Notes under the pieces: model-generated
What the model was told of the DNA's origin: nothing
Databases searched by the model: none
The model's input: the letters and a program-made list of their open reading frames with translations, nothing else
Position numbers and translations under genes: made by a program
IMG/VR virus record: IMGVR_UViG_3300033984_000410
Coordinates: 1-64,000 of that record
DNA: 64,000 bases
Source: a virus
Direction: 5' to 3' (one strand)
In this document: positions 225-49,863 of the stretch, in pieces
Layout of the letters: every line of letters begins with the position of its first letter
Numbering within the stretch: the first letter of the stretch is position 1

Positions 225-605
225 ATGAAAATAATAATCACAGAAAATAAGCTAAACACCTCATTTGAGAAAATGCTTAATAGGGAATTGAAACACCTAA
301 AAGAATATAAGGAATCCGACGATTTTGACGAAGAAAGTCTCCCAGATAATATTTCTTGGGATACAATGAATTGGATTGAATATGTTGATAAAATTGAGGT
401 TGTTCAAGTTGATAAAGAAACTAACCCAAATCCAGAATTTAGTTCTTTTAATGTTCTAATTAATGTTTATACAAGTTATTTAACTAATTTTGATGTTGAA
501 AGTATTATTTCAGACCTTGAAGATAATATTAACGAAACTTTACAATATAATGTAAGTTTAATTGAAAACGATGTAATAAATAACGGAACAACAACTGAAT
601 GGTAA
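225..605 (+). CDS. Hypothetical protein with MKIIITE leader
   Basis: This 126-residue acidic protein begins MKIIITENKLNTSFEKMLNR, an example of the N-terminal peptide shared by about fifteen proteins here. The rest shows no known domain. It is first in a run of three head-to-tail genes (225, 607, 1053) that all carry nearly the same first 8 codons, consistent with reuse of one 5' segment. The leader resembles T4-type capsid-targeting sequences; that role is inference. Confidence 0.8.
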   Translation: MKIIITENKLNTSFEKMLNRELKHLKEYKESDDFDEESLPDNISWDTMNWIEYVDKIEVVQVDKETNPNPEFSSFNVLINVYTSYLTNFDVESIISDLEDNINETLQYNVSLIENDVINNGTTTEW

Positions 606-606
606 T

Positions 607-1056
607 ATGAAAATAATAATTACAGAAAATCAATATACATTATTGAAAGAAATGGAAGATAACCCAAAAGTTTATAACTTCCCATCATTGGATGTTTTCG
701 GTAACGAAGAACCAATAGATAATTGGAATTTGATGCAAAGTTTTTTAGAGAAAAAAGGTAACCCAGATTTTTCTATTAGTGGTAATTTGGATTTAAGAGA
801 TACACCAATTGAATCACTAGGAAATCTTACTTCGGTTGGGGGTTATTTAAATCTATATGGTACACCAATTGAATCATTAGGTAATCTAACTTCAGTTGGG
901 GGTAGTTTGATTTTATCACGAACACCAATTGAATCATTGGAAAATCTAACTTCGGTTGGGGGGTTTTTAATTTTACGAAATACACCAATATCAGAAAAAT
1001 ACACAGAAAAAGAAATAAGAAGTCAGGTTGAAGTTAAAGGAAATATACACTTATGA
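607..1056 (+). CDS. Leucine-rich-repeat-like protein with MKIIITE leader
   Basis: The 149-residue protein starts MKIIITENQYTLLKEM, then carries at residues 58-135 about four copies of a 20-residue unit of the form TPIESLGNLTSVGGxLxL. Regular hydrophobic spacing and G-G turns suggest a small solenoid or LRR-like beta structure, usually protein-binding. The DNA repeats with a 60-base period, so copy number could change by slippage. The stop overlaps the next start (1053). No partner can be inferred. Confidence 0.82.
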   Translation: MKIIITENQYTLLKEMEDNPKVYNFPSLDVFGNEEPIDNWNLMQSFLEKKGNPDFSISGNLDLRDTPIESLGNLTSVGGYLNLYGTPIESLGNLTSVGGSLILSRTPIESLENLTSVGGFLILRNTPISEKYTEKEIRSQVEVKGNIHL

Positions 1057-1580
1057 GAATAATAATTACAGAAAATCAAAGAACCCAAATGTTAAATAAA
1101 ATTTGGGACAAATTAAAAGCAAACGGAAAACAACCAACACTAAACCGTGAGGTTCTAAACTCTTTAGGTTTTAATACTTGGGATTCCGAACCAAGATTTG
1201 CATTAACACATTACCTTGGCGGTTATGATAAAGTAAAGGAAGATGCTAAAAATTTAGTATTAGGAAAAACCTTTAATACCGATGACTATGATGGAACTGG
1301 TAGTTATAGTTTTACTTTTACAGTTGAAGATGTATGGGAAGAAAATGAAGAAGAACAAGCAATCCAATTTATAGTAAAATTTGGTAACGGAACTGTTGAT
1401 TGGTATGATGAAGATGGTGAAGAAATTGGTCCAACAGATATTTTAGATGCTTATTCACAAGCGGATATGACTGAAAGTTGGGAATTTAAGTCTGAAATAC
1501 AAGATGTTATTAAAATGATTTTAGAACAAGAAGTAACCAACAAAACCGGAATTGATGTTGAAGTTGAATTATTATGGTAA
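1053..1580 (+). CDS. Hypothetical protein with MRIIITE leader
   Basis: A 175-residue acidic protein starting MRIIITENQRTQMLNKIW. The ATG lies inside the last codons of the upstream gene (4-base overlap), so translation is probably coupled. There is no recognisable domain after the leader; the middle is rich in D, E and aromatic residues. A strong hairpin terminator follows at 1591-1619. Confidence 0.8.
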   Translation: MRIIITENQRTQMLNKIWDKLKANGKQPTLNREVLNSLGFNTWDSEPRFALTHYLGGYDKVKEDAKNLVLGKTFNTDDYDGTGSYSFTFTVEDVWEENEEEQAIQFIVKFGNGTVDWYDEDGEEIGPTDILDAYSQADMTESWEFKSEIQDVIKMILEQEVTNKTGIDVEVELLW

Positions 1581-1590
1581 AATCAATAAA

Positions 1591-1619
1591 AAAACCCATC
1601 TTATTTAGATGGGTTTTTT
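1591..1619. terminator. Bidirectional rho-independent terminator
   Basis: The inverted repeat AACCCATCT / AGATGGGTT with a 5-base loop is flanked by A and T runs. It lies between convergent genes (1053 plus, 1622 minus) and can serve both. Confidence 0.85.
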
Positions 1620-1621
1620 AT

Positions 1622-2356
1622 TTATCGTTTTAAGATTTCTTTAGTGTAATACTCATCAAAACCTTCCATCATCTGACTAACTGATTTGTTTTTATCAATT
1701 CCAATAACCGTATCAATTAAACCAAATTCTTTAGCTTCGTCAGAATTAAACCATTTATCATGTCTTGATGATTCAAGCATTTCCTCAAAAGTTTTTCCGC
1801 AATTATCAGCTAAAATTTTGAATAACATATAGTTATATTTTTCAGCTTCCAATTGGTTAATCCTAGTATCTTGTACATTACCCCCTGTAGAATGTGAAAC
1901 AAAATGCGTCATAACCTTTGAGTGAATTAATGATGACCTTTTACCCTTTTCTCCAGAAGATAACAATACAGAACCCATTGACGCACACATTCCAACATTG
2001 ATTGTTGCAACATCAGCTTTAATGTAATTCATAACATCTCTAATCCCCAATCCAGCTAATACTGAACCCCCAGGGCTTGATATCTGTAGAGTAATATCTT
2101 TTTTATTAACACTATCCAAGAACAATAATTGGGCTTCAACAATTGACGCCATTGTATCTTCAACACCTCCGGATACCCAAATAATCCTATCCATAAGAAG
2201 TCGCGAGAAAATATCTATTTGGGTAGCTCTCATTTCCCTTTCTTCCAAAATGTATGGTGTTACATTATCAATATGTTTTTGATAGTAATGTAGATTAAGG
2301 CCTGATAAACCTTTTTCACCCATTGCAAATTTCTCAAATTCGTTTTTGTAATTCAT
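1622..2356 (-). CDS. clpP: ClpP-type serine protease subunit
   Basis: The 244-residue protein matches Bacteroidetes ClpP throughout: an N-terminal segment resembling NLTPYIIEER, then SRLLMDRIIW, the SPGGSV loop at 94-99, nucleophile Ser126 in GMCASMGS, probable catalytic His151 in VMTH and Asp200 in RHDKW. ClpP forms a double-heptamer barrel that needs a Clp ATPase to feed it. A ClpC-like ATPase with the ClpP-docking VGF loop is encoded at 50451. The His region carries about three extra residues relative to the usual HQPxGG, so His155 is an alternative. Activity is inferred. Confidence 0.93.
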   Translation of the reverse strand: MNYKNEFEKFAMGEKGLSGLNLHYYQKHIDNVTPYILEEREMRATQIDIFSRLLMDRIIWVSGGVEDTMASIVEAQLLFLDSVNKKDITLQISSPGGSVLAGLGIRDVMNYIKADVATINVGMCASMGSVLLSSGEKGKRSSLIHSKVMTHFVSHSTGGNVQDTRINQLEAEKYNYMLFKILADNCGKTFEEMLESSRHDKWFNSDEAKEFGLIDTVIGIDKNKSVSQMMEGFDEYYTKEILKR

Positions 2357-2471
2357 ATATTAATTTTTTTAGTTATTCCAAATGATAGGTTAAAAAAATA
2401 AGATTGCCAACATTGAAAATTAATGTTTTTCTATTTGATTATTTAATTTATTTATATTATATTTTTTTATC

Positions 2472-7428: not shown

Positions 7429-7872
7429 ATGAAAAAATTTTTAATTACGGAATCAGAAAAAAAAACTATAAGACAATTATATGGACTAAGTGAACAACAA
7501 ACAGCTCCGGAATCATCTGTAGACACTACAACAACAGCAATACCACCTAAACAACAAATGGGGTCAACTCCTGAACAAAGAGCTGCAGCTAAAGAGAGAA
7601 ATAGGTTAAGATTAGCACCTATTGAAACGGCTCAAAAAACAAAGATACAAAATTGGATTGATTGTAATAGTAAACCGGGGAGTACACCTTTAACTACTGC
7701 TGATTATTGGAAATGGCAAGAAAAAAGAAACAAAGGTAATGATGCTGACCCATATGGTGGACAATTAAATACTTCCTCAGCAAACAAAAGAGGAGAAACA
7801 AAAGGAAGTTGTAATGCTGATGGTTCGGCCGGAGACACCAAAAAAGGTGAATCGTTGCAAGATATAAAATAA
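7429..7872 (+). CDS. Hypothetical protein with MKKFLITE leader
   Basis: 147 residues. The leader MKKFLITESEKKTIRQLYGL is followed by SEQQ, fitting the leader pattern with a downstream [LIV]-x-E-Q. After a T/P/Q-rich linker comes a basic domain with two cysteines (WIDCNSKPGS and KGSCNADGS) that could form a disulfide. Flanked by a terminator on each side, so it is a single-gene unit. Candidate packaged protein (inference). Confidence 0.78.
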   Translation: MKKFLITESEKKTIRQLYGLSEQQTAPESSVDTTTTAIPPKQQMGSTPEQRAAAKERNRLRLAPIETAQKTKIQNWIDCNSKPGSTPLTTADYWKWQEKRNKGNDADPYGGQLNTSSANKRGETKGSCNADGSAGDTKKGESLQDIK

Positions 7873-9831: not shown

Positions 9832-10122
9832 ATGGGAAAGTTAATTATAACCGAACAGGAAAGACAAGATATATTGGGTAAGTATAATGATGAGAATACC
9901 AATAAAGAGGTTCTTGTTTATTTACGCAGACATTTTACGACACATACTTATCCTGGAGTTCCTGACCAAGTAATGATATCTATCAATGATAAATTATATC
10001 CGGTGTATTCTAATAAAAAATATGTTAAAAATAGAATATACAATATAGTTAAGGAAGTCTTTGATAACTTGGATGAAGCGATTATAAAAAAAACAATTAA
10101 AAATTATTTAGATTATTTGTAA
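9832..10122 (+). CDS. Hypothetical protein with MGKLIITE leader
   Basis: 96 residues starting MGKLIITEQERQDILGKYND, a clear member of the leader set (E-x-x-x-I-L spacing kept). The remaining 65 residues form a small basic domain with aromatic residues. Too short for a family call. Confidence 0.75.
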   Translation: MGKLIITEQERQDILGKYNDENTNKEVLVYLRRHFTTHTYPGVPDQVMISINDKLYPVYSNKKYVKNRIYNIVKEVFDNLDEAIIKKTIKNYLDYL

Positions 10123-16566: not shown

Positions 16567-16920
16567 ATGAAAATAATTATCACCGAAGAACAATACAAAC
16601 ATTTTAATATTGTTAAAAAATCAGATTTAGAGGATTCCGGAACTTGGTCTGCGGATGTATTAACACATAAAAGTGAAGGTAAAAATATATATACTTATAG
16701 TGATGGTGTTTTTACAAAAAGAGAAAAAAAACCATTGGAAAGAGGTGTCACTCGTCACGGGGGTAGTAGAACCGAAGTTTTTTATCTATCTGATGAACAA
16801 GCGGAACAGGCAAATGATTTAATTAGACAGTCTCGTGAGTTAGAACAACAGGCGAAAGAATTACGTCAACAAGCCAAAGAAGTTATACAACAAGAATTTC
16901 ATTTACCACAAAAACGATAA
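16567..16920 (+). CDS. Hypothetical protein with MKIIITE leader and Q/E-rich coiled coil
   Basis: 117 residues starting MKIIITEEQYKHFNIVKKSD. Residues 75-110 are a heptad-like Q/E/R helix (ANDLIRQSRELEQQAKEL). Flanked by its own TATTTAT element and terminator. Candidate internal head protein (inference from leader). Confidence 0.75.
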   Translation: MKIIITEEQYKHFNIVKKSDLEDSGTWSADVLTHKSEGKNIYTYSDGVFTKREKKPLERGVTRHGGSRTEVFYLSDEQAEQANDLIRQSRELEQQAKELRQQAKEVIQQEFHLPQKR

Positions 16921-18902: not shown

Positions 18903-19427
18903 TTATTTTTCTTTAAGTAATACCAAACATCTTTTTAGATATTCTTTAGCTCTTGGAGATGGAGTATACTCATCTTCTTTTGTTTGTAAAGCCAATACTT
19001 TTTCAATATCTTTTACAAGTTCAGTTCCGTGTTCATTTTCTTTATAAAGTTCAATTACTTTATCCATAGCTTTATGACACTCATTTGATGTTTCATCAAA
19101 GTAATTTTTACCTCTATACTTATTCAAGTTATTAAGCATTTCGTAAGCTAAATGAGCTCCACCATCGTTAACATCCTTAAATAATCTCAATCCGTTTAAG
19201 ATACCTAAAGTATCAACCATTGAGTTAACACCATTTCTTCTTTTCTTAACACCTGGAGTATAGTGGTGAAAATCATCAGCTTTACCAGTAATTTCTTCTA
19301 GTGGCATAACATTAGATGTTAAACAATGATTTTTCTTTTCTTCTTTAACTTCTGGTTGTGCTTGTTCCAGGATATGTTTTCTAATAGATTGACGAAGTAA
19401 TTTTTCGTCTATAATAACTCTTTTCAT
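18903..19427 (-). CDS. Hypothetical protein with MKRVIIDE leader
   Basis: 174 residues beginning MKRVIIDEKLLRQSIRKHIL, then EQAQ, a variant of the leader (I-D-E in place of I-T-E, followed by I-L-E-Q). The rest is basic and helical with two cysteines. GATATTTATAAAA lies 15 bases upstream on its strand. Candidate packaged protein. Confidence 0.75.
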   Translation of the reverse strand: MKRVIIDEKLLRQSIRKHILEQAQPEVKEEKKNHCLTSNVMPLEEITGKADDFHHYTPGVKKRRNGVNSMVDTLGILNGLRLFKDVNDGGAHLAYEMLNNLNKYRGKNYFDETSNECHKAMDKVIELYKENEHGTELVKDIEKVLALQTKEDEYTPSPRAKEYLKRCLVLLKEK

Positions 19428-29632: not shown

Positions 29633-29633
29633 T

Positions 29634-30917: not shown

Positions 30918-30925
30918 TACATTTG
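30918..30925 (+). promoter_or_regulatory. Host-like -7 element (TACATTTG)
   Basis: 21 bases before the micro-ORF ATG at 30947, upstream of the second tRNA block. Confidence 0.5.
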
Positions 30926-30946
30926 CTAACACAAAACAGATAAACT

Positions 30947-31075: not shown

Positions 31076-31084
31076 TTAGAATAA

Positions 31085-31156: not shown

Positions 31157-31172
31157 CAAATTTAGAAAATAT

Positions 31173-31279
31173 CCTTCTGTAGTTTAACAAGAGCAAAACA
31201 CAGAGACGAATACATCTCCCTACGGTAACCATCCCAAGAATGTATTAAGAGTATGTGGGTTCAACTCCCACTGGAAGGG
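31173..31279 (+). tRNA. Expanded tRNA-like element (107 nt)
   Basis: Acceptor CCTTCTG/TGGAAGG and T-arm GTGGG-TTCAACT-CCCAC are intact. In place of a 17-nt anticodon arm there are about 54 nt, with a 7-bp stem AATACAT/ATGTATT topped by a 24-nt loop. Confidence 0.6.
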
Positions 31280-31303
31280 CAAATCATAGGAGTAATTACC
31301 TTA

Positions 31304-31427
31304 TGACTGAGAGATTCGAAGCTCTCGATTGATTATGGTGTAAAGGCGCACGGTAGAAGGTAGTAGGTCCGAATTATGCGAGACCGAGGGTGGAAACAGG
31401 ATTAAGGTTCGAATCCTTATTAGTCAG
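31304..31427 (+). tRNA. Expanded tRNA-like element (124 nt)
   Basis: Acceptor TGACTGA/TTAGTCA, D-arm GAGAG/CTCTC, T-arm TAAGG-TTCGAAT-CCTTA. About 80 nt lie between D and T arms, including CGCA/TGCG and GGTC/GACC stems. No anticodon arm identified. Confidence 0.55.
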
Positions 31428-31435
31428 CAAAATAA

Positions 31436-31553
31436 AGTCAGGTGGCGGAATTGGTAGACGCAACATGGTATGGCAATACAGAGGGTGATAGTATAAGTCC
31501 TATCAGTGGTAAGTGACCTCTCTTATAACAGGTTCGAATCCTTGTCCTGACTA
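31436..31553 (+). tRNA. Expanded tRNA-like element, AGTCAGG family (118 nt)
   Basis: Acceptor AGTCAGG/CCTGACT, Leu-type D-arm GCG-GAATTGGTAGA-CGC, T-loop TTCGAAT with a bulged T in the stem. The centre has GTAT-GGCA-ATAC and a long AGAGG/CCTCT arm containing GATAG/CTATC. Confidence 0.6.
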
Positions 31554-31578
31554 CAAATTTAAAATAAAAATAAAAATT

Positions 31579-31665
31579 ATGAAAAGAAAAGACGTTTACG
31601 TTTGTGTTTGTGATGGTAGTTGTACTAGTCCAGAGGATTGTTCACCAATTAAGTCAAAACGATAA
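31579..31665 (+). CDS. Micro-ORF, 28 aa, Cys-rich
   Basis: MKRKDVYVCVCDGSCTSPED then CSPIKSKR. Four cysteines in 14 residues suggest metal binding or disulfides. Lies between two tRNA-like elements with an A-rich start region. Confidence 0.45.
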   Translation: MKRKDVYVCVCDGSCTSPEDCSPIKSKR

Positions 31666-31672
31666 TAAAAAT

Positions 31673-31797
31673 AGTCAGGTGGCGGAAAACGAGGTATGCC
31701 AATAGGGTGTAGCCCGCAAGCAAGACGCTAATTGTAGTAAGTGTACTCATACGACATATAATCGGTACACATACAGGTTGGAATCCTGTTCTGACTA
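31673..31797 (+). tRNA. Expanded tRNA-like element, AGTCAGG family (125 nt)
   Basis: Acceptor AGTCAGG/TCTGACT and T-arm ACAGG-TTGGAAT-CCTGT (C56 replaced by G). D-loop extended to about 40 nt between GCG and CGC; GTGTAC/GTACAC stem in the centre. Confidence 0.55.
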
Positions 31798-31918
31798 ATA
31801 AATAGTAGAAACAACATCCCCCCAGTTTCTTGGTCTGTGCACGGATAGGATTTGTAAGGGGGTTGAGATTGGATGACGTTTATCTTTTGTAATCCAACAA
31901 TAAACAGAAAAAGATGTT

Positions 31919-32052
31919 AGTCAGGTGGCGAAAGGAGTGGGGTGTCCCTGCTCGTGGTAGACGCACACCTTTATGGTTAAAGCGGAGTGTGAAGTATAAA
32001 CACACCATACAGTTAACAGTATGAATTACGGGTTCGAATCCTGTCCTGACTA
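31919..32052 (+). tRNA. Expanded tRNA-like element with hairpin in the D-loop (134 nt)
   Basis: Acceptor AGTCAGG/CCTGACT. The D-stem GCG/CGC is intact but the loop carries an inserted 8-bp hairpin GAGTGGGG-TGT-CCCTGCTC before GTGGTAGA. Further hairpins CTTTA/TAAAG, GTGTG/CACAC and CATAC/GTATG follow. T-loop TTCGAAT. Confidence 0.6.
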
Positions 32053-32131
32053 CGATTGCTGAGGAACGGTCCAGAGTAGTGGAATTATAGTTAAATTCAA
32101 TACGTTGACAGCTTGGAAAGACAAGCAAAAC

Positions 32132-32233
32132 AGTCAGGTGGCAGAGTGGTTTAATGCTAACTAGGGAGAGTCTGAGGGTGGTAACCTAGTACCTATACCC
32201 ATATGACCGCAGGTTCGAATCCTGTCCTGACTA
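32132..32233 (+). tRNA. Expanded tRNA-like element, AGTCAGG family (102 nt)
   Basis: Acceptor AGTCAGG/CCTGACT, Ser/Leu-type D-arm GCA-GAGTGGTTTAA-TGC, T-arm GCAGG-TTCGAAT-CCTGT. Anticodon stem ACTAGG/CCTAGT carries a 19-nt loop instead of 7. Confidence 0.6.
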
Positions 32234-32242
32234 CAAATACAA

Positions 32243-32364
32243 GGTTCCTGAGATAAAGGATTAGCTTAGCACTAACTAACTAAATACTTAAACTCCAGCA
32301 TAACGGTTTGCTACCCCAGTTAGTGATGGTGGTGGAAAGATAGGTTCAACTCCTATAGGGACTA
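32243..32364 (+). tRNA. Expanded tRNA-like element (122 nt)
   Basis: Acceptor GGTTCCT/AGGGACT (two wobbles), T-arm ATAGG-TTCAACT-CCTAT. Central stem ACTAACT/AGTTAGT (7 bp) with a loop of about 40 nt. Confidence 0.55.
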
Positions 32365-32437
32365 CAAAGCTGACAACCTAGTGATTGATGTGTGAAGCTA
32401 ACACATAAGTTGTTGACTGATGGAAAGACATCAAAAT

Positions 32438-32522
32438 AGTCAGGTGGTGAAATGGATAGACACTACCCTGTTTGGGGGAGAGGTGAAAGAAACTCGTACA
32501 GGTTCGAATCCTGTCCTGACTA
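32438..32522 (+). tRNA. Class II tRNA-like, AGTCAGG family, anticodon unclear
   Basis: 85 nt: acceptor AGTCAGG/CCTGACT, D-arm GTG-AAATGGATAGA-CAC, loop around CCC-TGTTTGG-GGG, variable arm GAG/CTC, T-loop TTCGAAT. The loop does not place a U33. Confidence 0.65.
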
Positions 32523-32532
32523 CAAAATAATT

Positions 32533-32602
32533 GGTCTTGTTGGTCGAAGCGGCCGGTAAGTCTGCAAAACTTACGGAGGGGGTGCAATACCCTCCAAGAC
32601 CT
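32533..32602 (+). tRNA. tRNA-Cys(GCA)
   Basis: Acceptor GGTCTTG/CAAGACC with U73, D-stem GGTC/GGCC, anticodon arm TAAGT-CTGCAAA-ACTTA. T-arm GAGGG/CCCTC has an unusual 9-nt loop GGTGCAATA. Confidence 0.85.
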
Positions 32603-32677
32603 CAAAAGTTTAACAATTTGGTAGATACCGGTGATAATCACCGGTAAGTAAGGAAAATATAAATTAGAAAAGTTTAA

Positions 32678-32874
32678 CACCTCGATGGTTGTCTGTAACC
32701 AACATATGAAACAGAATAGGCGTGTTGATAGTGGTAAGCCTCGCTAATTGTAACCGATTAAGTTCAAAGGAAGATAAGGACTAGTACGCCTGTGACGAAC
32801 ACGACGAATTCAGGATTTCCCATAGTAGCCCCGTTACAAACCAGAGTGCCGCAGAGGTGTTAAATTTTTTTTAA
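32678..32874 (+). ncRNA. Structured RNA closed by an 11-bp terminal stem
   Basis: TTTAACACCTC near 32679 pairs with GAGGTGTTAAA near 32869, followed by a T-run. Inside are GGTT/AACC, AGGCGT/ACGCCT and GTCGTG-like pairings. No ORF and no tRNA arms. Candidate stand-alone sRNA. Confidence 0.6.
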
Positions 32875-32887
32875 TATATTTATCAAT

Positions 32888-33271
32888 ATGAAAAAATTTG
32901 TAATTACAGAAGAAGAAAAAGACGATATATTAAACCAACATAACGAAATGATGGATAAACCAAAACTTCCGGAAAATAGAAGAATGTTAGATTTGGATAT
33001 AACTCCAATGAGTTTAAAAAAATTTAAGTCTCAAGGTCTTACACCATATTACTATGATGGTGATACTGATATTATTGAAATGAAAGGTCCAATTAAAGGT
33101 AAAGTATATAATACAAAACCAAAAGAAGTTTTCTTATTAACATCTGATGAATATGATAAGATTAAACAATTATCAGATAAAATTAAGGAAATGATTGAAC
33201 TTAAATTATACACTATTAAACTATATAAGGAATACCTCCCATCTAGTTTAATTAAAATTGTGGAAAAATAA
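32888..33271 (+). CDS. Hypothetical protein with MKKFVITE leader
   Basis: 127 residues: MKKFVITEEEKDDILNQHNE, a textbook leader (E-E-E-K-x-x-I-L-x-Q-H). The rest is a small basic alpha/beta domain (KVYNTKPKEVFLLTSDEYDK). It sits alone among RNA genes, with AATATATTTAT directly upstream. Candidate packaged protein. Confidence 0.8.
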   Translation: MKKFVITEEEKDDILNQHNEMMDKPKLPENRRMLDLDITPMSLKKFKSQGLTPYYYDGDTDIIEMKGPIKGKVYNTKPKEVFLLTSDEYDKIKQLSDKIKEMIELKLYTIKLYKEYLPSSLIKIVEK

Positions 33272-33290
33272 AAAAAATATTCTAAAAAGT

Positions 33291-33320
33291 TTGTGGATAT
33301 TAGAAAAAGAGTTATCTTTG
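33291..33320 (+). promoter_or_regulatory. Host-like promoter for a structured RNA
   Basis: TTGTGG at 33291 and TATCTTTG at 33313-33320. Confidence 0.7.
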
Positions 33321-33325
33321 TCAAA

Positions 33326-33497
33326 GAAAATAAGTCTTAGCCGAAAAGACTGAGCACAAAACTAGAGTTTGTGTAGGAATACATCTAAAGATGGTGGCTA
33401 AGTGGGTCTCTTGGATACACCCGACCAAGCGTAAGGCGACAACACGTTAGGGAAAGCTGTCGTAATACTAACCCCCAACTATAATTGGGGGTTTTAT
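33326..33497 (+). ncRNA. Structured small RNA, about 170 nt
   Basis: Own promoter and terminator, no ORF. Stems: CTTAGCC/GGCTAAG (7 bp), CACAAA/TTTGTG hairpin, GACA/TGTC hairpin, then terminator AACCCCCAA/TTGGGGGTT. Family not recognised. Confidence 0.65.
33469..33494 (+). terminator. Rho-independent terminator
   Basis: AACCCCCAA-CTATA-ATTGGGGGTT and T run, ending the 33326 RNA. Confidence 0.85.
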
Positions 33498-33569
33498 AAA
33501 AAAAATTAAAAATACTTTACACTTTAGTGAATTAGTATATATTTATTAGAAATAACAATAAAACAACAA

Positions 33570-33644
33570 ATGAAAAATCTAAACATATCACTTACAATAG
33601 CGGCAACTGAGGGTAGAGATACAACTTGGATGTTGATGGTATGA
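33570..33644 (+). CDS. Micro-ORF, 24 aa
   Basis: MKNLNISLTIAATEGRDTTW then MLMV. A TATATTTATTA element is 30 bases upstream and a terminator 25 bases downstream, making a complete mini transcription unit like the one at 28262. Confidence 0.45.
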   Translation: MKNLNISLTIAATEGRDTTWMLMV

Positions 33645-33668
33645 AATATATTTAACTAAAAATATTAA

Positions 33669-33704
33669 AAAATCCATCTTCAAAAAAAAGGTGGATTTTT
33701 TTTT
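33669..33704 (+). terminator. Rho-independent terminator
   Basis: AATCCATCTT / AAGGTGGATT hairpin with T9. Confidence 0.85.
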
Positions 33705-33735
33705 ATGTGTTGTTGTTATAATCAAATATTATCCT

Positions 33736-33743
33736 TATCTTTG
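33736..33743 (+). promoter_or_regulatory. Host-like -7 element (TATCTTTG)
   Basis: 22 bases before ATG 33765, upstream of the third tRNA block. Confidence 0.55.
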
Positions 33744-33764
33744 TTAAAAGAAATTATAAAAAAT

Positions 33765-33941
33765 ATGAAAGATACAAAAACTAACCAGGAGGTTACATTA
33801 AACGAAGAATTGGTGATGGAGTATTCACCAATATTAGGAACAACATACACATTAAAACCAGTTGAGTGGGATGAAGACCACGCGTTTAGTTTAGTTCTAA
33901 ATGATATCCTTGATGATTTGGATATTGATGAGTTAAAATAG
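33765..33941 (+). CDS. Small acidic protein, 58 aa
   Basis: MKDTKTNQEVTLNEELVMEY; acidic C-terminus (DILDDLDIDELK). The start is downstream of the -7 box. Immediately precedes tRNA-Glu. Confidence 0.6.
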   Translation: MKDTKTNQEVTLNEELVMEYSPILGTTYTLKPVEWDEDHAFSLVLNDILDDLDIDELK

Positions 33942-33950
33942 TAATACAAT

Positions 33951-34022
33951 GGCCCGGTCGTCTAAAAGTTAGGACCTCACATTTTCATCGTGAAAACCGG
34001 GGAGCGTTACCCCGTCGGGCTA
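33951..34022 (+). tRNA. tRNA-Glu(TTC), non-canonical elbow
   Basis: Acceptor GGCCCGG/TCGGGCT (G-U at both ends), anticodon loop TTTTCAT. D-loop TAAAAGTTAG lacks GG; T-arm CGGGG-AGCGTTA-CCCCG. Confidence 0.87.
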
Positions 34023-34045
34023 CGAAAGATATAAAATAAATTCAC

Positions 34046-34125
34046 GCGGTTGTGAAAGATATAGGTGAATGTCGGGTTCGATTCCCGGCAACCAGGACGG
34101 TTCGACTCCGCTGGTGCTGGCCGCA
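34046..34125 (+). ncRNA. tRNA-like element with two T-arms and no anticodon arm
   Basis: CGGG-TTCGATT-CCCG and CGG-TTCGACT-CCG T-arm motifs occur in tandem inside a possible outer stem GCGGTTG/TGGCCGC. GGTTG/CAACC and ACCAG/CTGGT stems enclose them. No 7-nt anticodon loop. Confidence 0.5.
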
Positions 34126-34156
34126 ATATACTATTTCATTTTTTATATCTTTAATT

Positions 34157-34228
34157 GGGGCTATCGTATAAAAGCTATTACAATGGTTTTGCAAATCATA
34201 GAACACGGAGCGTTACCGTGTAGCTCCA
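34157..34228 (+). tRNA. tRNA-Ala(TGC), non-canonical elbow
   Basis: Acceptor GGGGCTA/TAGCTCC, anticodon loop TTTGCAA. D-loop lacks GG; T-arm CACGG-AGCGTTA-CCGTG. Confidence 0.88.
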
Positions 34229-34248
34229 CAAAAAAAACAAAAATAAGT

Positions 34249-34279
34249 TTGATTATTAAAATAATATAACTTAAATTTG
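34249..34279 (+). promoter_or_regulatory. Host-like promoter in tRNA block 3
   Basis: TTGATT near 34249 and TAAATTTG at 34272-34279 ahead of tRNA-Asp. Confidence 0.55.
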
Positions 34280-34295
34280 TAGAGAATAAAAACAA

Positions 34296-34366
34296 AGTCT
34301 AGTAGTGAAAAAGAATCATCCAACACTGTCACTGTTGAGTAGCCGGAGCATTACCGGTCTAGACTG
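34296..34366 (+). tRNA. tRNA-Asp(GTC), non-canonical elbow
   Basis: Acceptor AGTCTAG/CTAGACT, anticodon arm CAACA-CTGTCAC-TGTTG. D-loop AAAAGAA; T-loop AGCATTA. Confidence 0.88.
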
Positions 34367-34383
34367 CAAAATAAATAATACAT

Positions 34384-34454
34384 CGCGGGAAGCTAAGTAG
34401 CAGTCGGGTCTCATAAGCCATGATGTGTAGTAGGAGCGTTACCTTCTCCCGCAA
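34384..34454 (+). tRNA. tRNA-Met(CAT), possibly initiator, non-canonical elbow
   Basis: Acceptor CGCGGGA/TCCCGCA leaves a C1-A72 mismatch, a hallmark of bacterial initiator tRNA. Anticodon loop CTCATAA; T-loop AGCGTTA; short D-arm. Ile2 (lysidine) is an alternative. Confidence 0.75.
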
Positions 34455-34476
34455 CTAATTTAATAAATAATTAACT

Positions 34477-34650
34477 ATGGCTACAGCACCGCAAAAATCA
34501 AGAAAACAAAGAGCTTTAAGTGTTCTTGAAACACAATTAAGTAATTCAGTTAAAACTGAAAAAGGAACAACAGATGTTAAAATTCCTCTAACTGAAGCAG
34601 ATGTTAAGAGAATTAAAAAAGAAATTGAAATCTTAAAAACAAGAGTTTAA
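34477..34650 (+). CDS. Small basic protein, 57 aa
   Basis: MATAPQKSRKQRALSVLETQ with a lysine-rich helical C-terminus (DVKRIKKEIEILKTRV). Lies between tRNA-Met and tRNA-Gly. May bind RNA; unproven. Confidence 0.6.
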   Translation: MATAPQKSRKQRALSVLETQLSNSVKTEKGTTDVKIPLTEADVKRIKKEIEILKTRV

Positions 34651-34659
34651 TTTAGTTCC

Positions 34660-34731
34660 GCGGGTGTCGTATAATGGTCATTACAATTGACTTCCAATCA
34701 ATAGACGAGATTTCGATTATCTCCATCCGCT
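34660..34731 (+). tRNA. tRNA-Gly(TCC)
   Basis: Acceptor GCGGGTG/CATCCGC, D-loop with GG, anticodon arm ATTGA-CTTCCAA-TCAAT, T-arm GAGAT-TTCGATT-ATCTC. Fully canonical. Confidence 0.93.
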
Positions 34732-34734
34732 CTT

Positions 34735-34915
34735 TCTCAGAGAATTACGACGAAAACTGGGTTTTAGCCCCTGTTATAACACCACCAAGATACTCTAGCA
34801 ATTCCGGATTAGTTAGGTTGCGGTGATAAGGAAATAAGTCGGGTATAGCTAACCAAAAAGACGAAAACCTTGTAGTGGATTATGGTGACGCTCCATAGCA
34901 GTAAATCTCTTATTA
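34735..34915 (+). ncRNA. Gene-free structured stretch between tRNAs
   Basis: About 180 nt without ORF or tRNA arms. GAGAATT near the start can pair with AAATCTC near the end. Probably a spacer RNA. Confidence 0.35.
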
Positions 34916-34919
34916 TAAT

Positions 34920-34989
34920 AATTGGGTAGCTCAGTGGATAGAGCAGTCAATATATTGATGTGCCGGTGGTTTGATTCCACCCCCAATTA
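34920..34989 (+). tRNA. tRNA-like with truncated anticodon arm
   Basis: Acceptor AATTGGG/CCCAATT, D-arm GCTC-AGTGGATA-GAGC, T-arm GGTGG-TTTGATT-CCACC are all good. The anticodon arm is TCAA-TATA-TTGA, a 4-nt loop with no readable anticodon. Confidence 0.65.
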
Positions 34990-34993
34990 TAAC

Positions 34994-35068
34994 ACCCCCA
35001 TGGGCAAACTGGTAAAGTCGCTTCACTTAGGATGAAGAGTTCTGTGAGTTCAACTCTCACTGGGGGTA
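34994..35068 (+). tRNA. tRNA-Leu(TAG) with short variable loop
   Basis: Acceptor ACCCCCA/TGGGGGT, D-loop with GG, anticodon arm CTTCA-CTTAGGA-TGAAG, T-loop TTCAACT. Leu tRNAs are normally class II; here the variable loop is about 6 nt. Confidence 0.82.
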
Positions 35069-35071
35069 CAA

Positions 35072-35144
35072 ATTAGAATTAGCTTATAGTAAAGCGGCAG
35101 GAGTTTAACTTACTGCATAACGGATTCCAACACCGGTTCTAATT
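35072..35144 (+). tRNA. tRNA-like, degenerate anticodon and T arms
   Basis: Acceptor ATTAGAA/TTCTAAT perfect, D-stem GCTT/AAGC. Anticodon stem GCAG/CTGC with a 12-nt loop; T region CGG-ATTCCAACA-CCG. Confidence 0.55.
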
Positions 35145-35182
35145 TTTTATAAAATAAAATAGGTTTATAAGTATAGATTTTA

Positions 35183-35190
35183 TATATTTG
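35183..35190 (+). promoter_or_regulatory. Host-like -7 element (TATATTTG)
   Basis: Upstream of the 500-nt gene-free structured stretch. Confidence 0.5.
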
Positions 35191-35199
35191 TTAAAATAA

Positions 35200-35705
35200 A
35201 CATAACCCAGTAGATAGGTCCGCCAAGAAAGTCTTTAAACAACGTGGGAACTGCGGCTCTCCCAATGTGGCTGGAATGTTTTAATAAAAGGCTGAACATC
35301 GAACCTTTGTAATAGACTATAAAAGGTCTTTAAGACGTAGTATTGTAATAAATATTATGCTTTACATAAAGATATCAACAGAGATGTTGAATGCGTTGTT
35401 CCCTTGAGAAAGGAAAATAGAGTGGCTACAAGGTTGTTGCAACAACTAGTAAAGACTAACGCAAATGAGCTCTCAGCAAGCAACCTGTTTGGGTTCATCC
35501 AGCAGCTGCGTGACCCTACTCTTATACAAGCTCCGTAACTGATAACTCGGCAAGCTATAAGAAAGGGTGCTAAATAAAAACTACTTGAGTAAGTGGGGGT
35601 GGTCAATCAACAACCCATTGAAGTTTCAGGTGAATATATAGACAGGATTGGTGAGTCTATATAAGTAAGTAACAAGTTAATGTGTTTTTAGAAAGATTGA
35701 ATAGT
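35200..35705 (+). ncRNA. Large structured RNA, about 500 nt
   Basis: No plausible ORF. Hairpins visible by eye: GTTGTTGCAACAAC, TATATAGAC/GTCTATATA (9 bp, near 35636), CAACAGAGATGTTG, CTTATA/TATAAG. A -7 box at 35183. Possibly the same kind of RNA as 41680-42590; RNase P RNA was considered but its conserved core is not convincing. Confidence 0.55.
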
Positions 35706-35708
35706 TTT

Positions 35709-35809
35709 TAACATTGGCGAAAAATAGTCAGGTGACGTAATGTAAACGTTATGGTGCAAGTCCATTTCAACTCAAGTGAGTAATATAGGTGCGAATCCTG
35801 TTCTGACTA
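35709..35809 (+). tRNA. tRNA-Leu(CAA)-like, AGTCAGG family
   Basis: Acceptor AGTCAGG/TCTGACT, D-stem ACGT/ACGT, loop TGCAAGT (CAA at 34-36 but G33), class II variable arm ACTC-AAGT-GAGT, T-loop TGCGAAT with position 55 changed. Confidence 0.65.
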
Positions 35810-35811
35810 CA

Positions 35812-35982
35812 ATGAGTAAGAGATACTCAGAAGTCTTTAATCCAAGACTTTTTAACAATGGATTGGGTAATGAATTGGACATCCTCAAAGCCAATTCCTT
35901 GGGTGAAAGACAGGTAGTAGCGTCTCCAAGTAAACTTGACTTTTTTGTTTGGGTAAGACCGTCTTCGTTTTTGAAAGGATAA
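35812..35982 (+). CDS. Small protein, 56 aa
   Basis: ATG 35812 (MSKRYSEVFNPRLFNNGLGN) immediately after the tRNA 3' end; an earlier in-frame ATG lies within the tRNA. Basic, no known domain. Confidence 0.55.
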   Translation: MSKRYSEVFNPRLFNNGLGNELDILKANSLGERQVVASPSKLDFFVWVRPSSFLKG

Positions 35983-36025
35983 AACGAGTAATATCTACAC
36001 CGAAATATCTCATCGGTGGTTTTTT

Positions 36026-36097
36026 GGTCTCGTAGCTCAAAGGTGGAGCAGTTCGCTCATAACGAAAAGGATGGGATATCGTAATTCCCCGAGACCA
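36026..36097 (+). tRNA. tRNA-Met(CAT) (elongator or Ile2), altered T-loop
   Basis: Acceptor GGTCTCG/CGAGACC, D-loop with GG, anticodon loop CTCATAA. T-arm GGGA..TCCC with T-T mismatch and loop ATCGTAA. Confidence 0.85.
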
Positions 36098-36132
36098 CAA
36101 ATTATCCCCCCTTTGTGTTCTATCACATCGGC

Positions 36133-41681: not shown

Positions 41682-42624
41682 AAATCGGGAATAACCGATA
41701 TCGTTCTTTGAGAAAACAGATTATCCATTATAATACTTCGGTATTGTAAAAAACGATAATGGGCGGCTTATAGTCCTTATATAAATTGATGAAAATCAAT
41801 ATAAAGTGAATCTGTTGTGTTAACAGATTTGCGGTTTCAGAAATGGAACTCAAGTAAGCAAGCAGGATACTATATAATCTTGATTACCGAGGCCAACGGT
41901 GTAGGGAAAGTGATTATATAACTGGGTGATGTGGGTCATCTGGTTGAGGGGGGAACTCTAATAGGAATAACCTGTAGGATTTGTGCAAAAAATATGATTA
42001 TCCAATTATATTATTGCGACTTCCAAAATTAAAGGAAACTTAAAACCGAAAGGTATGACAACAAACAGGTGGTGCTGAAATTGTCCTTGATACTTATCTA
42101 CCAAGGTAAATATCTCGAAGTAGTCTTGAAATTTGAGAGTAGGGATACTCTAAGATGAAGTTAAGTATTCTGATGTCCAAAAGATATCGGAGCTTGGGGT
42201 AAACCACTTCGTCTATTCATCCACAACACAATACCTTATACTTTATTTAAGTAAAACTAAAAAAATGTAAGCAAAAGTGTTTACCACTATGAAACGGAAG
42301 TTGCCCACATATTCACTGGCTGTCAGTGGAACGTAATAACCGCAAGTTTGACCGTATTTTTATGAAAAATCTCTAAGCCGTCGGAAGCTGAATCAGGACG
42401 CAATCTTGATGAGACAGGAGTAGTAAGAGAGTAGTTTCATAGTTAAGGGGTGATTGGTCTAACCAATCGGCAATGAGAAATACTAATCAAAAGTTAGTGG
42501 AAAAGTAGGGAAACCATAATCCTATGAAAGGTTCTTAAAATTAAAGTTTATTCTCAGCTTTTTTTATTTTTTATCAAAACATACAGAAAATCCTTTAACA
42601 AAATAATGTTAAAGGATTTTTTTG
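41682..42624 (+). ncRNA. Giant structured RNA (GOLLD/ROOL-like candidate)
   Basis: About 900 nt without a credible ORF, between its own promoter and a strong terminator. Dense hairpins: AATAC-TTCG-GTATT inside CCATTA/TAATGG, ATTGAT-GAAA-ATCAAT, AATCTGTT/AACAGATT, ACC-GAAA-GGT, AGAGTA-GGGA-TACTCT, CACTG/CAGTG, GATTGGT/ACCAATC. Several close with stable tetraloops. Size, phage origin and nearness to tRNAs are features of GOLLD and ROOL RNAs (established families), but I cannot match a consensus, so a new class is possible. Confidence 0.75.
42589..42624 (+). terminator. Rho-independent terminator
   Basis: AATCCTTTAAC / GTTAAAGGATT hairpin and T7, ending the large RNA. Confidence 0.88.
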
Positions 42625-42627: not shown

Positions 42628-42750
42628 ATTGATATATTTATAATAAAAAACTAATATGAAAAATTTATTTAATGACATTTCTCAAGAAGAGAAAAATAGA
42701 ATCCTTGAGATGCACTCGGGTAAAAAAAATGTGATATCTGAACAAGAAAT
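42628..42750 (+). repeat. Promoter-plus-leader cassette, copy 1
   Basis: About 115 bases covering GATATATTTATAATA and the first 30 codons of the gene at 42656. Nearly identical to 46733-46855. Confidence 0.85.
42631..42643 (+). promoter_or_regulatory. TATTTATA candidate late promoter
   Basis: GATATATTTATAA, 13 bases upstream of ATG 42656; the identical element precedes ATG 46761. Confidence 0.5.
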
Positions 42751-43137: not shown

Positions 43138-43590
43138 ATGAAAAAAGAAATCAACATAGTCAATAAGAAAGCGAAACACGAATACGAGTTTTTACAGACT
43201 TACGTATGCGGCGTTAAGCTAATCGGTTGTGAAGTAAAATCAATACGCCTAGGTAAGGTTTCCATATCCGAGGGGTATTGTTACTTCAACAATAACGAAT
43301 TATTCATTAAAGGAATGAACATATCTGATTATGGTTACGGCACAGTCCATGATAACACCTCAGATAGAAAGTTATTATTAAAACGGAAAGAGTTAAACAA
43401 ATTAGAAAAAGAACTCGTAAAAGGCCTTACAATCGTTCCTTACAGGGTCTTTACAAATGAGAGAGGATTGATTAAAATAGAGATATCCCTATCTCGTGGT
43501 AAAAAGAACTACGATAAAAGAAATGACCTAAAGTCCAGGGATATTGATAGAGATAGTAAAAGAGAAATTAGTGGTCGGTTCACAAAATAA
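43138..43590 (+). CDS. smpB: SmpB, tmRNA-binding protein
   Basis: 150 residues: NKKAKHEYEFLQTYVCGVKL, IGCEVKSIRLGKVSISEGYC, TSDRKLLLKRKELNKLEKEL and LSRGKKNYDKRNDLKSRDID are the signature blocks of SmpB, with a basic C-terminal tail. SmpB delivers tmRNA to stalled ribosomes. The complete tmRNA gene lies 450 bases away on the other strand, so the phage carries both trans-translation components. Confidence 0.97.
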   Translation: MKKEINIVNKKAKHEYEFLQTYVCGVKLIGCEVKSIRLGKVSISEGYCYFNNNELFIKGMNISDYGYGTVHDNTSDRKLLLKRKELNKLEKELVKGLTIVPYRVFTNERGLIKIEISLSRGKKNYDKRNDLKSRDIDRDSKREISGRFTK

Positions 43591-44025: not shown

Positions 44026-44412
44026 TGGTGGAGATGCCGGGATTTGAACCCGGGTCTTGCCCATCCTAAAGATTAAGGACTACACGCTTAGGTCAACATT
44101 TTTCTAATGTTCCGAAAATAGTTAGTTCGTTCTTCACCATTGTAAACTAACAACCAATGGATGACTCGATTTCGGGTTCAGTCATTTTTCCACCTTTGTA
44201 AGACCTTATGTTCCTGGGTTATATGGTTACCGACCCGTTGTTGTTCAACTAATTAAGCTGTAACAACTTCTTCAGAGCGGATTAATCCTACTGCTGAAAG
44301 TTTTGCGATTGTTTCGCCGTTTGAATTTTGTGACCATAGATTTAAGTGATAGGAAACTTCTCACTGCGTGCCCCCAATAAATAGCAATGCCAATCAATAC
44401 CATTTCATCCCC
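44026..44412 (-). ncRNA. ssrA: Transfer-messenger RNA (tmRNA)
   Basis: On the minus strand the RNA starts GGGGATGAAATGGTATTGAT (like the conserved 5' end GGGGNUGAnnnUGGnUUCGAC) and ends with a T-arm CCGGG-TTCAAAT-CCCGG and CATCTCC-ACCA; 5' GGGGATG pairs with CATCTCC. Length is about 387 nt. The tag frame begins GGC GAA ACA (G-E-T, as in Bacteroidetes tags) but then reads IAKLSAVGLIRSEEVVTA before TAA at 44253-44255, instead of the short NYALAA ending. Promoter TATATTTG on minus at 44431. Confidence 0.93.
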
Positions 44413-46733: not shown

Positions 46734-46855
46734 GTGATATATTTATAATAAAAAACTAATATGAAAAATTTATTTAATGACATTTCTCAAGAAGAGAAAA
46801 ATAGAATACTTGAGATGCACTCAGGTAAAAAGAATGTAATTTCTGAACAAAATAG
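46733..46855 (+). repeat. Promoter-plus-leader cassette, copy 2
   Basis: Near-identical to 42628-42750, ending at codons for VISEQ; downstream sequences are unrelated. Confidence 0.85.
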
Positions 46856-47522: not shown

Positions 47523-47987
47523 TTAGATGTCTCTTGGAGACTTAACTTCTTTTTCTACTGAAACAAGGGTATATAACACACCTTCCACCATATTTCCTTT
47601 GATAATCTCTTCGGATACAAAATCCTCAATCTTATCTTGGATTGTTCTTTTGATTGGTATAGCTTCGTAAGTCTCGTCAAATCCAACATCGGAAATCAAA
47701 TGTAAAATAGTTTCATCAAATGTGATGTTATAGTTCAAACCAACTAATCTTTTTGATAACTTATCTAATTCCAATGTTACAATTTTTTTAACATCTTCCT
47801 TCACCAACGAATTAAAGATAACAACCTCATCAATTCTATTTAAGAATTCCGGAGTAAAGAATTTTTTAAGTTCTTTTTTAAGAATTTCTCGTTTGTATTC
47901 TTCTTCAGCATAAGAGTTATTACCGGTTTTAAATCCCACACCTGAACCAAAGTCTTGTAATTTTTTAACCCCCACATTTGATGTCAT
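47523..47987 (-). pseudogene. C-terminal fragment of the ClpC-like ATPase
   Basis: 154 residues align from start to end with the C-terminal 170 residues of the protein at 50451 (TSNVGVKKLQDFGSGVGFKT, PEFLNRIDEVVIF, PIKRTIQDKIEDFVSEE). It begins abruptly at the end of the second ATPase core, so it cannot work alone. The upstream part is missing and joined to a peptidase fragment. Confidence 0.85.
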
Positions 47988-48230: not shown

Positions 48231-48623
48231 ATGAAAAAATTAATAATTACTGAAGAAGAAAAAAATAGAATACTTAATCTTCATTTAAACGAACAAAGTA
48301 AAGAAAATTCCGCAGTTAAATTTATAAAAAATTTATTGGTAACAAATCCAAATTTATTTAATGGTAAAAAACCTTTAAGTTTATTAGAAAAACCATTGAA
48401 TGATTTTAACTCAAAAAACCCTTCCGATAGATTAGATATACCATCATTAGTAAAACAGTTGTCGGTTAATAATTCACCTTTTAAAATGACCACATTCAAC
48501 ATTCAAACCTATGAACCAAAACGCATTACTAGGTTAGATTATGACTTAAACAACATTGGTTTTACCTTAACAAAAAATGAAATTGATAACTCAATACAGG
48601 GTGGTGTTAAATTAAAATTTTAA
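48231..48623 (+). CDS. Leader-peptide protein (MKKLIITEEEK type)
   Basis: 130 residues. MKKLIITEEEKNRILNLHLN then EQSKEN: the clearest leader with L-N-E-Q. Cargo is a small basic domain (LVTNPNLFNGKKPLSLLEK). Own TATTTAT promoter and terminator. Candidate packaged protein. Confidence 0.8.
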   Translation: MKKLIITEEEKNRILNLHLNEQSKENSAVKFIKNLLVTNPNLFNGKKPLSLLEKPLNDFNSKNPSDRLDIPSLVKQLSVNNSPFKMTTFNIQTYEPKRITRLDYDLNNIGFTLTKNEIDNSIQGGVKLKF

Positions 48624-48641
48624 GAGACTTCTGTCTTTTTT
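48622..48641 (+). terminator. Weak terminator
   Basis: AAGAGACTT-CTG-TCTTTT with a T run; a decayed copy of the 46708 hairpin. Confidence 0.6.
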
Positions 48642-48650
48642 TTTATTTTA

Positions 48651-48662
48651 AGTATTTATTAC
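48651..48662 (+). promoter_or_regulatory. TATTTATT candidate late promoter
   Basis: AGTATTTATTAC, about 20 bases before ATG 48675. Confidence 0.45.
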
Positions 48663-48674
48663 TAAAACACTATT

Positions 48675-49493
48675 ATGAAAAACTTATTTATACTAACCGA
48701 AGAAGAAAAAAATAGAATTTTAAATCTTCATGAAAGTGCCACAAAACGACATTATTTAGTTGAACAAGAAATAAAACAAGGACCTGAAGGTGACCCATAT
48801 CAATATAAAAAAATTGGTGACGAATATTTTTACGCTAAGAAAAATGACGACAATTGGACTAAAGTTAATAACCCTAAAGGTATTACAGATATCAAAAATA
48901 CTATTTTTAATTCATCAATAAATAAATTAACAACTCAAAAACCTGAAGCTTATTTATTATTTGATGGTACTAATTTAAATTGGATTGAGAATGGTAAAGT
49001 TATTAAACGATGGTCAGCAATTTCAGGAAGAACTAAATTTAATACTTTTGGTGATAAAAATTTGGAGAAATTAGTTAAAAAATATGGGGCTAATAGGATG
49101 GAATTTATGAAAATTAAAGACCAAGGTCCTATACCTGTTGGTGAATATTCTATAGGTCAAGTACAAAAACGAACAAATGGTGACGCTCAAAGATTTATAC
49201 AAGGTAAAACGGATAAAGAGTTACAACGTATTATGTTACAAAATGTTAAACACGATTGGAATTTAGGAACAGAAACTGATATGGTTGCTTGGGGTAATTA
49301 CAGATTACCAATAACTAAAGTTGGTGAAACTGAAACTTTTGGTAGAGGTAGTTTTTACATTCATGGTGGTGGTATTCCAGGTTCTATTGGTTGTATTGAT
49401 TTATTAACTCAAATGGATGATTTCGCAAACTATTTCACAAATTGGAAGAATAAAACAAAAAAAAATAAATTAAAATTAGTTGTTAAGTATTAA
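48675..49493 (+). CDS. L,D-transpeptidase-like (DUF2778/Tlde1 type) wall enzyme with leader
   Basis: 272 residues. Leader MKNLFILTEEEKNRILNLHE with HYLVEQE at about residue 30. From about residue 85: YLLFDGTNLNWIENGKVIKR, then FYIHGGGIPGSIGCIDL, the H-x-x-x..S-x-G-C catalytic motif. Such enzymes act on the peptide stems of peptidoglycan. A leader on a wall enzyme fits a virion-borne entry or exclusion toxin-like role (inference). Confidence 0.85.
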   Translation: MKNLFILTEEEKNRILNLHESATKRHYLVEQEIKQGPEGDPYQYKKIGDEYFYAKKNDDNWTKVNNPKGITDIKNTIFNSSINKLTTQKPEAYLLFDGTNLNWIENGKVIKRWSAISGRTKFNTFGDKNLEKLVKKYGANRMEFMKIKDQGPIPVGEYSIGQVQKRTNGDAQRFIQGKTDKELQRIMLQNVKHDWNLGTETDMVAWGNYRLPITKVGETETFGRGSFYIHGGGIPGSIGCIDLLTQMDDFANYFTNWKNKTKKNKLKLVVKY

Positions 49494-49499
49494 TTTTAC

Positions 49500-49526
49500 T
49501 AATAAATAAATAAATAAATAAATAAA
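49500..49526 (+). repeat. (TAAA)n microsatellite
   Basis: Six AAAT units just upstream of ATG 49528; likely affects spacing to a start region by slippage. Confidence 0.8.
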
Positions 49527-49527
49527 A

Positions 49528-49863
49528 ATGAAAAAAGTAGTTAAATTAACTGAAAGAGAATTAAATAATCTTATTAGGAGAATGATTAACGAAGATATGG
49601 AATCTTCTTTAGAATCAAAAGGTGGTAAATGGTTAAGTGTTAAAAACAAAATACCCGCAAACCCACCTAAAATGTCTCTTGGTGCTTTAAAAGAAAGATT
49701 GGGTAATGACGGATATTCTAATGATAATAGTGATGAACCTTTAGCAAACATTCAAGTTTTTGTTCATGGAGCAAAAAACCCTGGTGAGAACATTCCGATG
49801 AGATTATTATTCCGTAACCCAACAGACCCAACAGACAGAAAATGGTATGAACTAGTTGCTTAA
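49528..49863 (+). CDS. Leader-variant protein (MKKVVKLTEREL)
   Basis: 111 residues: MKKVVKLTERELNNLIRRMI then NEDMESS, a variant of the leader with L-T-E and an amphipathic helix. The C-terminal half (PLANIQVFVHGAKNPGENIP) is beta-like. Candidate packaged protein. Confidence 0.75.
   Translation: MKKVVKLTERELNNLIRRMINEDMESSLESKGGKWLSVKNKIPANPPKMSLGALKERLGNDGYSNDNSDEPLANIQVFVHGAKNPGENIPMRLLFRNPTDPTDRKWYELVA

Follow-up and report, generated by a model that had tools for sequence, protein, structure and literature searches.

Leader genes of the window

The window analysed here is a 64,000-base stretch of phage DNA, bases 1 to 64,000 of the 80,004-base IMG/VR virus record IMGVR_UViG_3300033984_000410, and the subject is a set of its genes whose proteins begin with similar short N-terminal peptides, called leaders below. 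The 80,004-base record is fully identical, end to end, to a segment of a 282,192-base record (G015, the 282-kb record), which carries a T4-type head module with Gp23 (Pfam, 4e-74), Portal_T4 (6e-76), a T4-type terminase (2e-11) and an S77 prohead protease (4e-24). Among cultured phages, those closest in capsid protein are Flavobacterium phage immuto and Microcystis phage Mel-JY01 (40-43% identity, 54-57% query cover), and the host is presumably a member of the Bacteroidota.

The initial annotation had listed 16 genes of the window as unrelated proteins sharing one N-terminal peptide, possibly cargo packaged into the head and injected with the DNA. All 16 were recovered with the same starts, two of them (22461, minus strand, and 23418) at an internal Met of a longer open reading frame (ORF). 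The shared leader is real, but it is not a single peptide: profiles, that of class B built on leaders from relatives, separated several leader families, and the genes that were said to begin alike were divided into eight of class B (23418 only weakly), five of class A, one of class C and two recognized by eye only. The features are as follows, with a slash marking the predicted cut.

225-245, plus strand: class A leader MKIIITE (class A profile)
607-627, plus: class A leader MKIIITE (class A profile); tandem paralogues elsewhere in the 282-kb record
1053-1073, plus: class A leader MRIIITE (class A profile)
7429-7494, plus: class B leader MKKFLITESEKKTIRQLYGLSE/Q (profile E 9e-9; upstream TATTTAT motif)
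9832-9888, plus: class B-like leader, no distal [LI]-x-E (profile E 1e-4)
16567-16587, plus: class A leader MKIIITE (class A profile; upstream motif)
19365-19427, minus: leader by eye, ending ILE/Q, gene 18903-19427 (sequence; upstream TATTTAT motif)
21843-21863, plus: class A leader MKIIITE (class A profile)
23037-23090, minus: leader by eye at an internal Met, MKVNLLITEHQKKVILLE/S, containing LLE/S, gene 22461 (class B profile E 0.17-0.4 only)
23418-23480, plus: weak class B-like leader at an internal Met, no distal [LI]-x-E (profile E 2e-3)
25139-25261, plus: candidate leader outside the profiles, ending VNE/Q (pattern)
26132-26155, plus: candidate leader outside the profiles, MKNKIILE/Q (pattern)
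32888-32974, plus: class B leader ending LPE/N (profile E 2e-8; upstream motif)
42656-42742, plus: class B leader, ISQ subtype, ending ISE/Q (30 residues identical to 46761)
46761-46847, plus: class B leader, ISQ subtype, ending ISE/Q (class B profile; DNA comparison with 42656)
48231-48293, plus: class B leader ending LNE/Q (profile E 2e-9)
48675-48764, plus: class B leader ending LVE/Q on a YkuD/Tlde1 protein (profile E 6e-21)
49528-49593, plus: class C leader MKKVVKLTERELNNLIRRMINE/D (profile E 9e-12)
60282-62147, plus: portal protein, T4 type (Portal_T4, 6e-76)
63512-64000, plus (to 64246 in the record): prohead protease, S77/gp21 family (Peptidase_S77, 4e-24)

In the 282-kb record 38 leader genes were counted among 380 ORFs of at least 60 residues, with 17 in class A, 11 in class B, 6 in class C and 4 in a fourth class, D. 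Just beyond the end of the window, the 80,004-base record has three extra leader-like starts (69646, 70254 and 70883). Relatives were collected as 157 loci from two scans, one with the capsid protein and one with the leader, to which the record itself was added; some of these loci come from the same contigs. For class C, at least 382 of 600 candidate stretches were confirmed and 80 loci were kept. Classes B and C recur across these public viral contigs ahead of unrelated proteins.

Class B leaders

Class B has the form M-K-x-x-[IL]-[TSND]-x-E-E-K-x-x-I-L-x-x-H ... [LI]-x-E/Q. Its profile matched 11 proteins of the 282-kb record (independent E ≤ 0.0065), nine at residue 1 and two at an internal Met, and since every match lies at such a start the leader is not a chance resemblance. 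In the record and relatives together, 165 of the 181 matches with E ≤ 1e-3 were N-terminal and the other 16 lay at an internal Met upstream of residue 70. The profile gave 187 class B genes in this set, 117 of them distinct by their first 60 residues, from which one was dropped as a recombinase-like false match. The remaining 116 proteins fell into 28 cargo clusters with no between-cluster similarity at E 1e-3, and identity falls at the junction, so that these proteins share only the leader. When one class B pattern was searched in bacterial and archaeal genomes, 23 stretches matched and none was confirmed as a relative.

The same leader has been joined to different cargo. Pairwise identity among seven ISQ-subtype copies is 78-97% in the leader DNA and 21-40% in the next 90 bases. 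For 42656 and 46761 the figures are 94% and 34%, and their BLAST match extends up to codon 30, which encodes the Q that follows the Glu, and ends there at the leader/cargo junction. Judged by these alignments, the leader is a swappable module.

Such a pattern could also be produced by a DNA or RNA module (promoter, ribosome-binding site and first codons) copied by recombination, the peptide itself having no role; leader genes do have a common upstream motif, and some pairs reach 82-88% identity over the 40 bases that precede the start. However, upstream identity varies from 33 to 88% in the seven ISQ copies while the leader stays at 78-97%, and the distal Glu is retained while leader length varies. 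Moreover, the ratio of nonsynonymous to synonymous differences per site (pN/pS) was 0.28 for 44 leaders of 30 codons (946 pairs), with pN < pS in 938 pairs. Selection therefore acts on the leader peptide, and a role of the nucleic acid alone is considered very improbable.

Predicted cleavage site

Cleavage after I-T-E or before E-Q had been suggested at first. For class B the I-T-E site was rejected because residues 5-7 are not a conserved Glu site, Glu being absent there in the variants LDG, ISS, ISQ and LND. The proximal I-T-E would fit a helix cap. Two shallow AlphaFold models, of low to moderate confidence, have a helix at residues 9-27 and 9-30. The model of 48675 is poor past residue 115 (mean predicted local distance difference test score 52), and a fold search of the 69646 model against the PDB gave 546 matches at E ≤ 10, none at ≤ 0.001 and the best at 0.18.

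The distal [LI]-x-E before Q is a better candidate for the class B site than I-T-E. The [LI]-x-E-Q pattern with Glu at residues 20-29 was found at 13 of 3380 positions, against 13 of 35,517 beyond residue 150, an enrichment of about 10-fold (P ~8e-10), while the control patterns [LI]-x-D-Q and [LI]-x-K-Q occurred twice each in the same 3380 positions. In class B, [LI]-x-E follows the helix in 26 of 28 cargo clusters, at residue 21 to 36, compared with 19% in random windows of the same proteins; without anchoring on Glu, [LIVM]-x-E was present in 64 of 72. A position profile anchored on Glu is circular for P1, the residue before the cut, and was not used for that residue.

The same rule is found in class C and in head proteins. 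All 101 distinct class C leaders among the matches listed have Glu as P1 (38 of 41 in another, smaller set), with P3 being I in 75, L in 17, V in 7 and M in 2, and P2 free. Each of the 32 distinct N-termini of the capsid protein (from 61 found in 80 loci) has INE/A, which aligns with the T4 gp23 site, and scaffold N-termini carry L-x-E-Q in 11 of 13 distinct cases, two of them displaced by an insertion. T4 sequences served as the yardstick: IAE/A in internal proteins IPII and IPIII, ITE/A in IPI and LTE/A in gp23. According to the available part of PMC9026906, gp21 cuts after L/I-X-E, the leaders of the internal proteins have 10-19 residues and propeptides range from 7 to 65 residues.

Class C leaders

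Class C has the form L-T-E-x-[DE]-L ... h-x-E and is less strictly N-terminal, 19 of 66 matches in the record and relatives being internal or C-terminal. One locus (L222) has six leader genes within 6 kb. The displaced copies in relatives, 16 distinct cases, provide a natural control: where at least 140 residues followed the helix, [LI]-x-E was kept in 9 of 9, and where the protein ended within 25 residues it was present in 2 of 7 (Fisher P 0.005, a guide only, as the cases are related and the split was chosen after viewing). Met is the first residue in six of the nine internal copies, which may be independent translation starts. The difference between internal and C-terminal copies fits a helix that would target and a Glu that would release.

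Two further cases were observed. At 89291 of the 282-kb record (L175:9291), a 396-residue protein opens with a leader-like sequence and also holds, at residues 173-192, a class C copy that ends in ILE/Q. At 70883-71299 of the 80,004-base record (L007:8879-9295) and in relatives there is a near-capsid family starting [IL]-x-E/A-T-S, which resembles the predicted mature start of the capsid protein; in the relatives the class C helix is often at or near the end of the protein.

Protease and head genes

The gp21-like protease annotated at 63512 was confirmed as Peptidase_S77 (85.6 bits against a cut-off of 27). Its ELNHP and SSRG blocks, which we take to contain the catalytic residues, align with T4 gp21. 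The phage carries a protease of the family, and a capsid-protein site, that match the ends of the leaders. In relatives, S77 was tested in 25 of 79 class B loci and 16 of 80 class C loci, selected by length of contig, and was found in 19 of the 25 and 14 of the 16 records.

Upstream motif and gene position

TATTTAT[ACT] lies 9-32 nucleotides before the start of 13 of 21 class B, C and D leader genes of the 282-kb record, compared with 43 of 342 other genes (P 6e-7). By class, the counts are 9 of 11 for B, 3 of 6 for C, 1 of 4 for D and 4 of 17 for A, and the genes for the protease and the scaffold have it as well. Among the relatives, 74 of 145 leader genes have the motif upstream, compared with 356 of 1210 other genes. 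We infer that the motif is late-promoter-like. A test on a hand-picked set of structural genes gave P 0.004, which is biased by choosing the set after the motif list had been seen and was not relied on.

Position relative to the capsid gene was counted in loci with at least 4 kb of flank: leader genes were present within 5 kb on the downstream side in 26 of 42, and on the upstream side in 1 of 30. This count covers 45 of 80 loci, selected on flank length.

Cargo proteins

Of 60 cargo representatives, six matched the Pfam family PG_binding_1, one TseH, one PG_binding_3 and one both YkuD and Tlde1, and several matched PHROGs labelled endolysin; most had no Pfam family match, and wall domains were found in a minority only. 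The YkuD/Tlde1 protein is 48675 (Tlde1_dom 5e-8, YkuD 9e-7), which has HGGGIPGSIGC at the expected place and is the sole member of its 18-member cluster to match the motif. Several cargos are, on these domain matches, peptidoglycan-related.

The six PG_binding_1 proteins and the endolysin matches would also suit a leader that stays uncut on lysis or wall enzymes as one of their permanent domains, serving for example as an anchor or in activity control, and carries no head signal. Against this, most cargo clusters match no wall domain, one terminal rule is common to class B leaders, class C leaders and the capsid site, and the C-terminal helix copies are mostly without the Glu. We regard a permanent wall-enzyme domain as unlikely, at about one chance in ten or so in plain terms.

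Class A leaders

The proposal that the leaders mark head cargo is much less secure for class A, to which five of the 16 listed genes belong. Here MKIIITE may simply reflect descent from one ancestral gene by tandem duplication: the 282-kb record has paralogues at 160.9-163.3 kb with 82-84% DNA identity to 607, the upstream motif is found before few class A genes, and there is no general distal site. On the other side, MKIIITE stands on several unrelated proteins, T4 IPI itself has ITE/A, and two members, with MK[IV]IITERQ followed by LLSE/D or LLTE/T, look like class B leaders of reduced length. Class A leaders may be an abbreviated version, with the cut after I-T-E. The evidence for a head leader is weak in this class, and shared descent by duplication is given a nearly even chance.

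Proposed function of class B and C leaders

For classes B and C the proposal fits, with an S77 protease, T4-type head genes and L/I-X-E ends. We consider it likely (probability about 0.78) that these leaders are capsid-targeting propeptides, removed in the head, on a range of unrelated proteins. The leader helix would probably dock on the scaffold core, so that the protein enters the assembling prohead. The phage's own S77 protease would then cut the leader at the distal [LI]-x-E, and the mature cargo would be freed inside the head and delivered with the DNA. Docking, cleavage, packaging and injection are all deduced here from sequence patterns.

Several observations weigh against this proposal. 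Eight of 72 class B leaders (six with YL[TN]LEQ, one from locus L034 and 9832) are exceptions to the distal rule, 9832 and 23418 have no distal site at all after the helix, and a second candidate site, L-H-E, often lies inside the class B helix. The upstream motif is absent before the capsid gene. A tblastn search of 50,697 phage records with the class B and C consensus peptides returned nothing, although such short queries can miss; there is therefore no cultured example of the class B leader. In 16 contigs picked by thymidylate synthase, the records being fragments, S77 was found in two of the five with leaders and in six of the 11 without, so this set shows no link between leaders and S77, and S77 without these leaders is common. 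Finally, 11 leader records have no S77: three have Gp23 near the contig end and eight lack Gp23 as well. The latter would fit cut records, which is no proof. In two records (G045 and G058), comparison with the near-identical G044 and G059 would put the protease past the contig end.

Neighbouring features

Leader gene 42656 is preceded, at a distance of about 95 bases, by a GOLLD RNA (RF02032, 273 bits) at 42153-42560 on the plus strand. GOLLD RNAs, whose function is unknown, occur in phages and prophages and assemble into nanocages (PMC12286853, available part). A transfer-messenger RNA (RF00023, 83 bits; 44026-44412, minus strand) lies beside an SmpB-like ORF (43138-43590, plus strand), named by eye with no search made. 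About 13 tRNA genes occupy 28532-36098 on the plus strand (13 by ARAGORN and 13 Rfam tRNA rows), one with an undetermined anticodon.

A Clp-like ATPase of 695 residues, named by eye (50451-52538, minus strand), has a separate copy of its C-terminal part at 47523-47987 (minus strand), which is 66% identical to the phage's own gene and about 92% identical to the gene of several relatives. Leader genes 48231, 48675 and 49528 sit between the two copies, which suggests insertion by recombination.

Comparison with known systems and significance

The nearest parallel is the capsid-targeting sequence of the T4 internal proteins IPI, IPII and IPIII, where unrelated proteins have a common short N-terminal leader ending L/I-X-E and a gp21-family protease is present (PMC9026906, PMC3012670 and PMC12373910, in the parts available). 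In the tests run, class B and C leaders appear to act like those of T4, with differing sequence, greater length, more families and many more genes. No similarity of leader sequence is evident by eye; class B sites lie at residue 21-36 instead of 10 and 19; several families coexist on 38 genes, compared with three internal proteins in T4; and here the leader recurs as near-identical DNA before different cargo.

In the giant phages phiKZ, 201phi2-1 and SPN3US, too, numerous head proteins carry propeptides, which a diverged relative of gp21 removes by cutting after Glu (PMC9026906). The available part of PMC9026906 holds no description of a common leader on unrelated cargo for them, and the present phage differs in having a direct T4-type head module. 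In immuto, which has an annotated S77-type protease and Gp23, two proteins begin with MKKQILSEQF(K/R)RMQ(F/K)LAGIITE/S. This is another leader sequence, with two copies in 150,000 of 160,410 bases. No description of the present leaders was found in the parts of the literature available, which is no proof of absence.

A wider and more tentative reading, which we hold possible but rather doubtful, is that a common group of uncultured jumbo phages has in its head a general protein-injection device, loaded by several coexisting leader families, which are kept as recombining cassettes, with tens of proteins, about one tenth of the ORFs. The cargo would include wall-acting enzymes with domains also found in type VI secretion effectors, each leader family may serve its own core site or copy number, and through internal leader copies some proteins may be polyproteins that are cut inside the head.

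If the leaders do mark head cargo, a short profile would predict which proteins of unknown function in this phage group enter the cell with the DNA, together with the position at which each is cut. The internal proteins of T4 have nothing in common but a packaging leader, and the GmrSD restriction enzyme that is inhibited is a different one for each of IPI, IPII and IPIII (PMC12373910, available part); the leader set would therefore be a list of candidate anti-defence and wall-acting proteins. The T4 strategy would then not be limited to a single leader, and would be used far more extensively than in T4.

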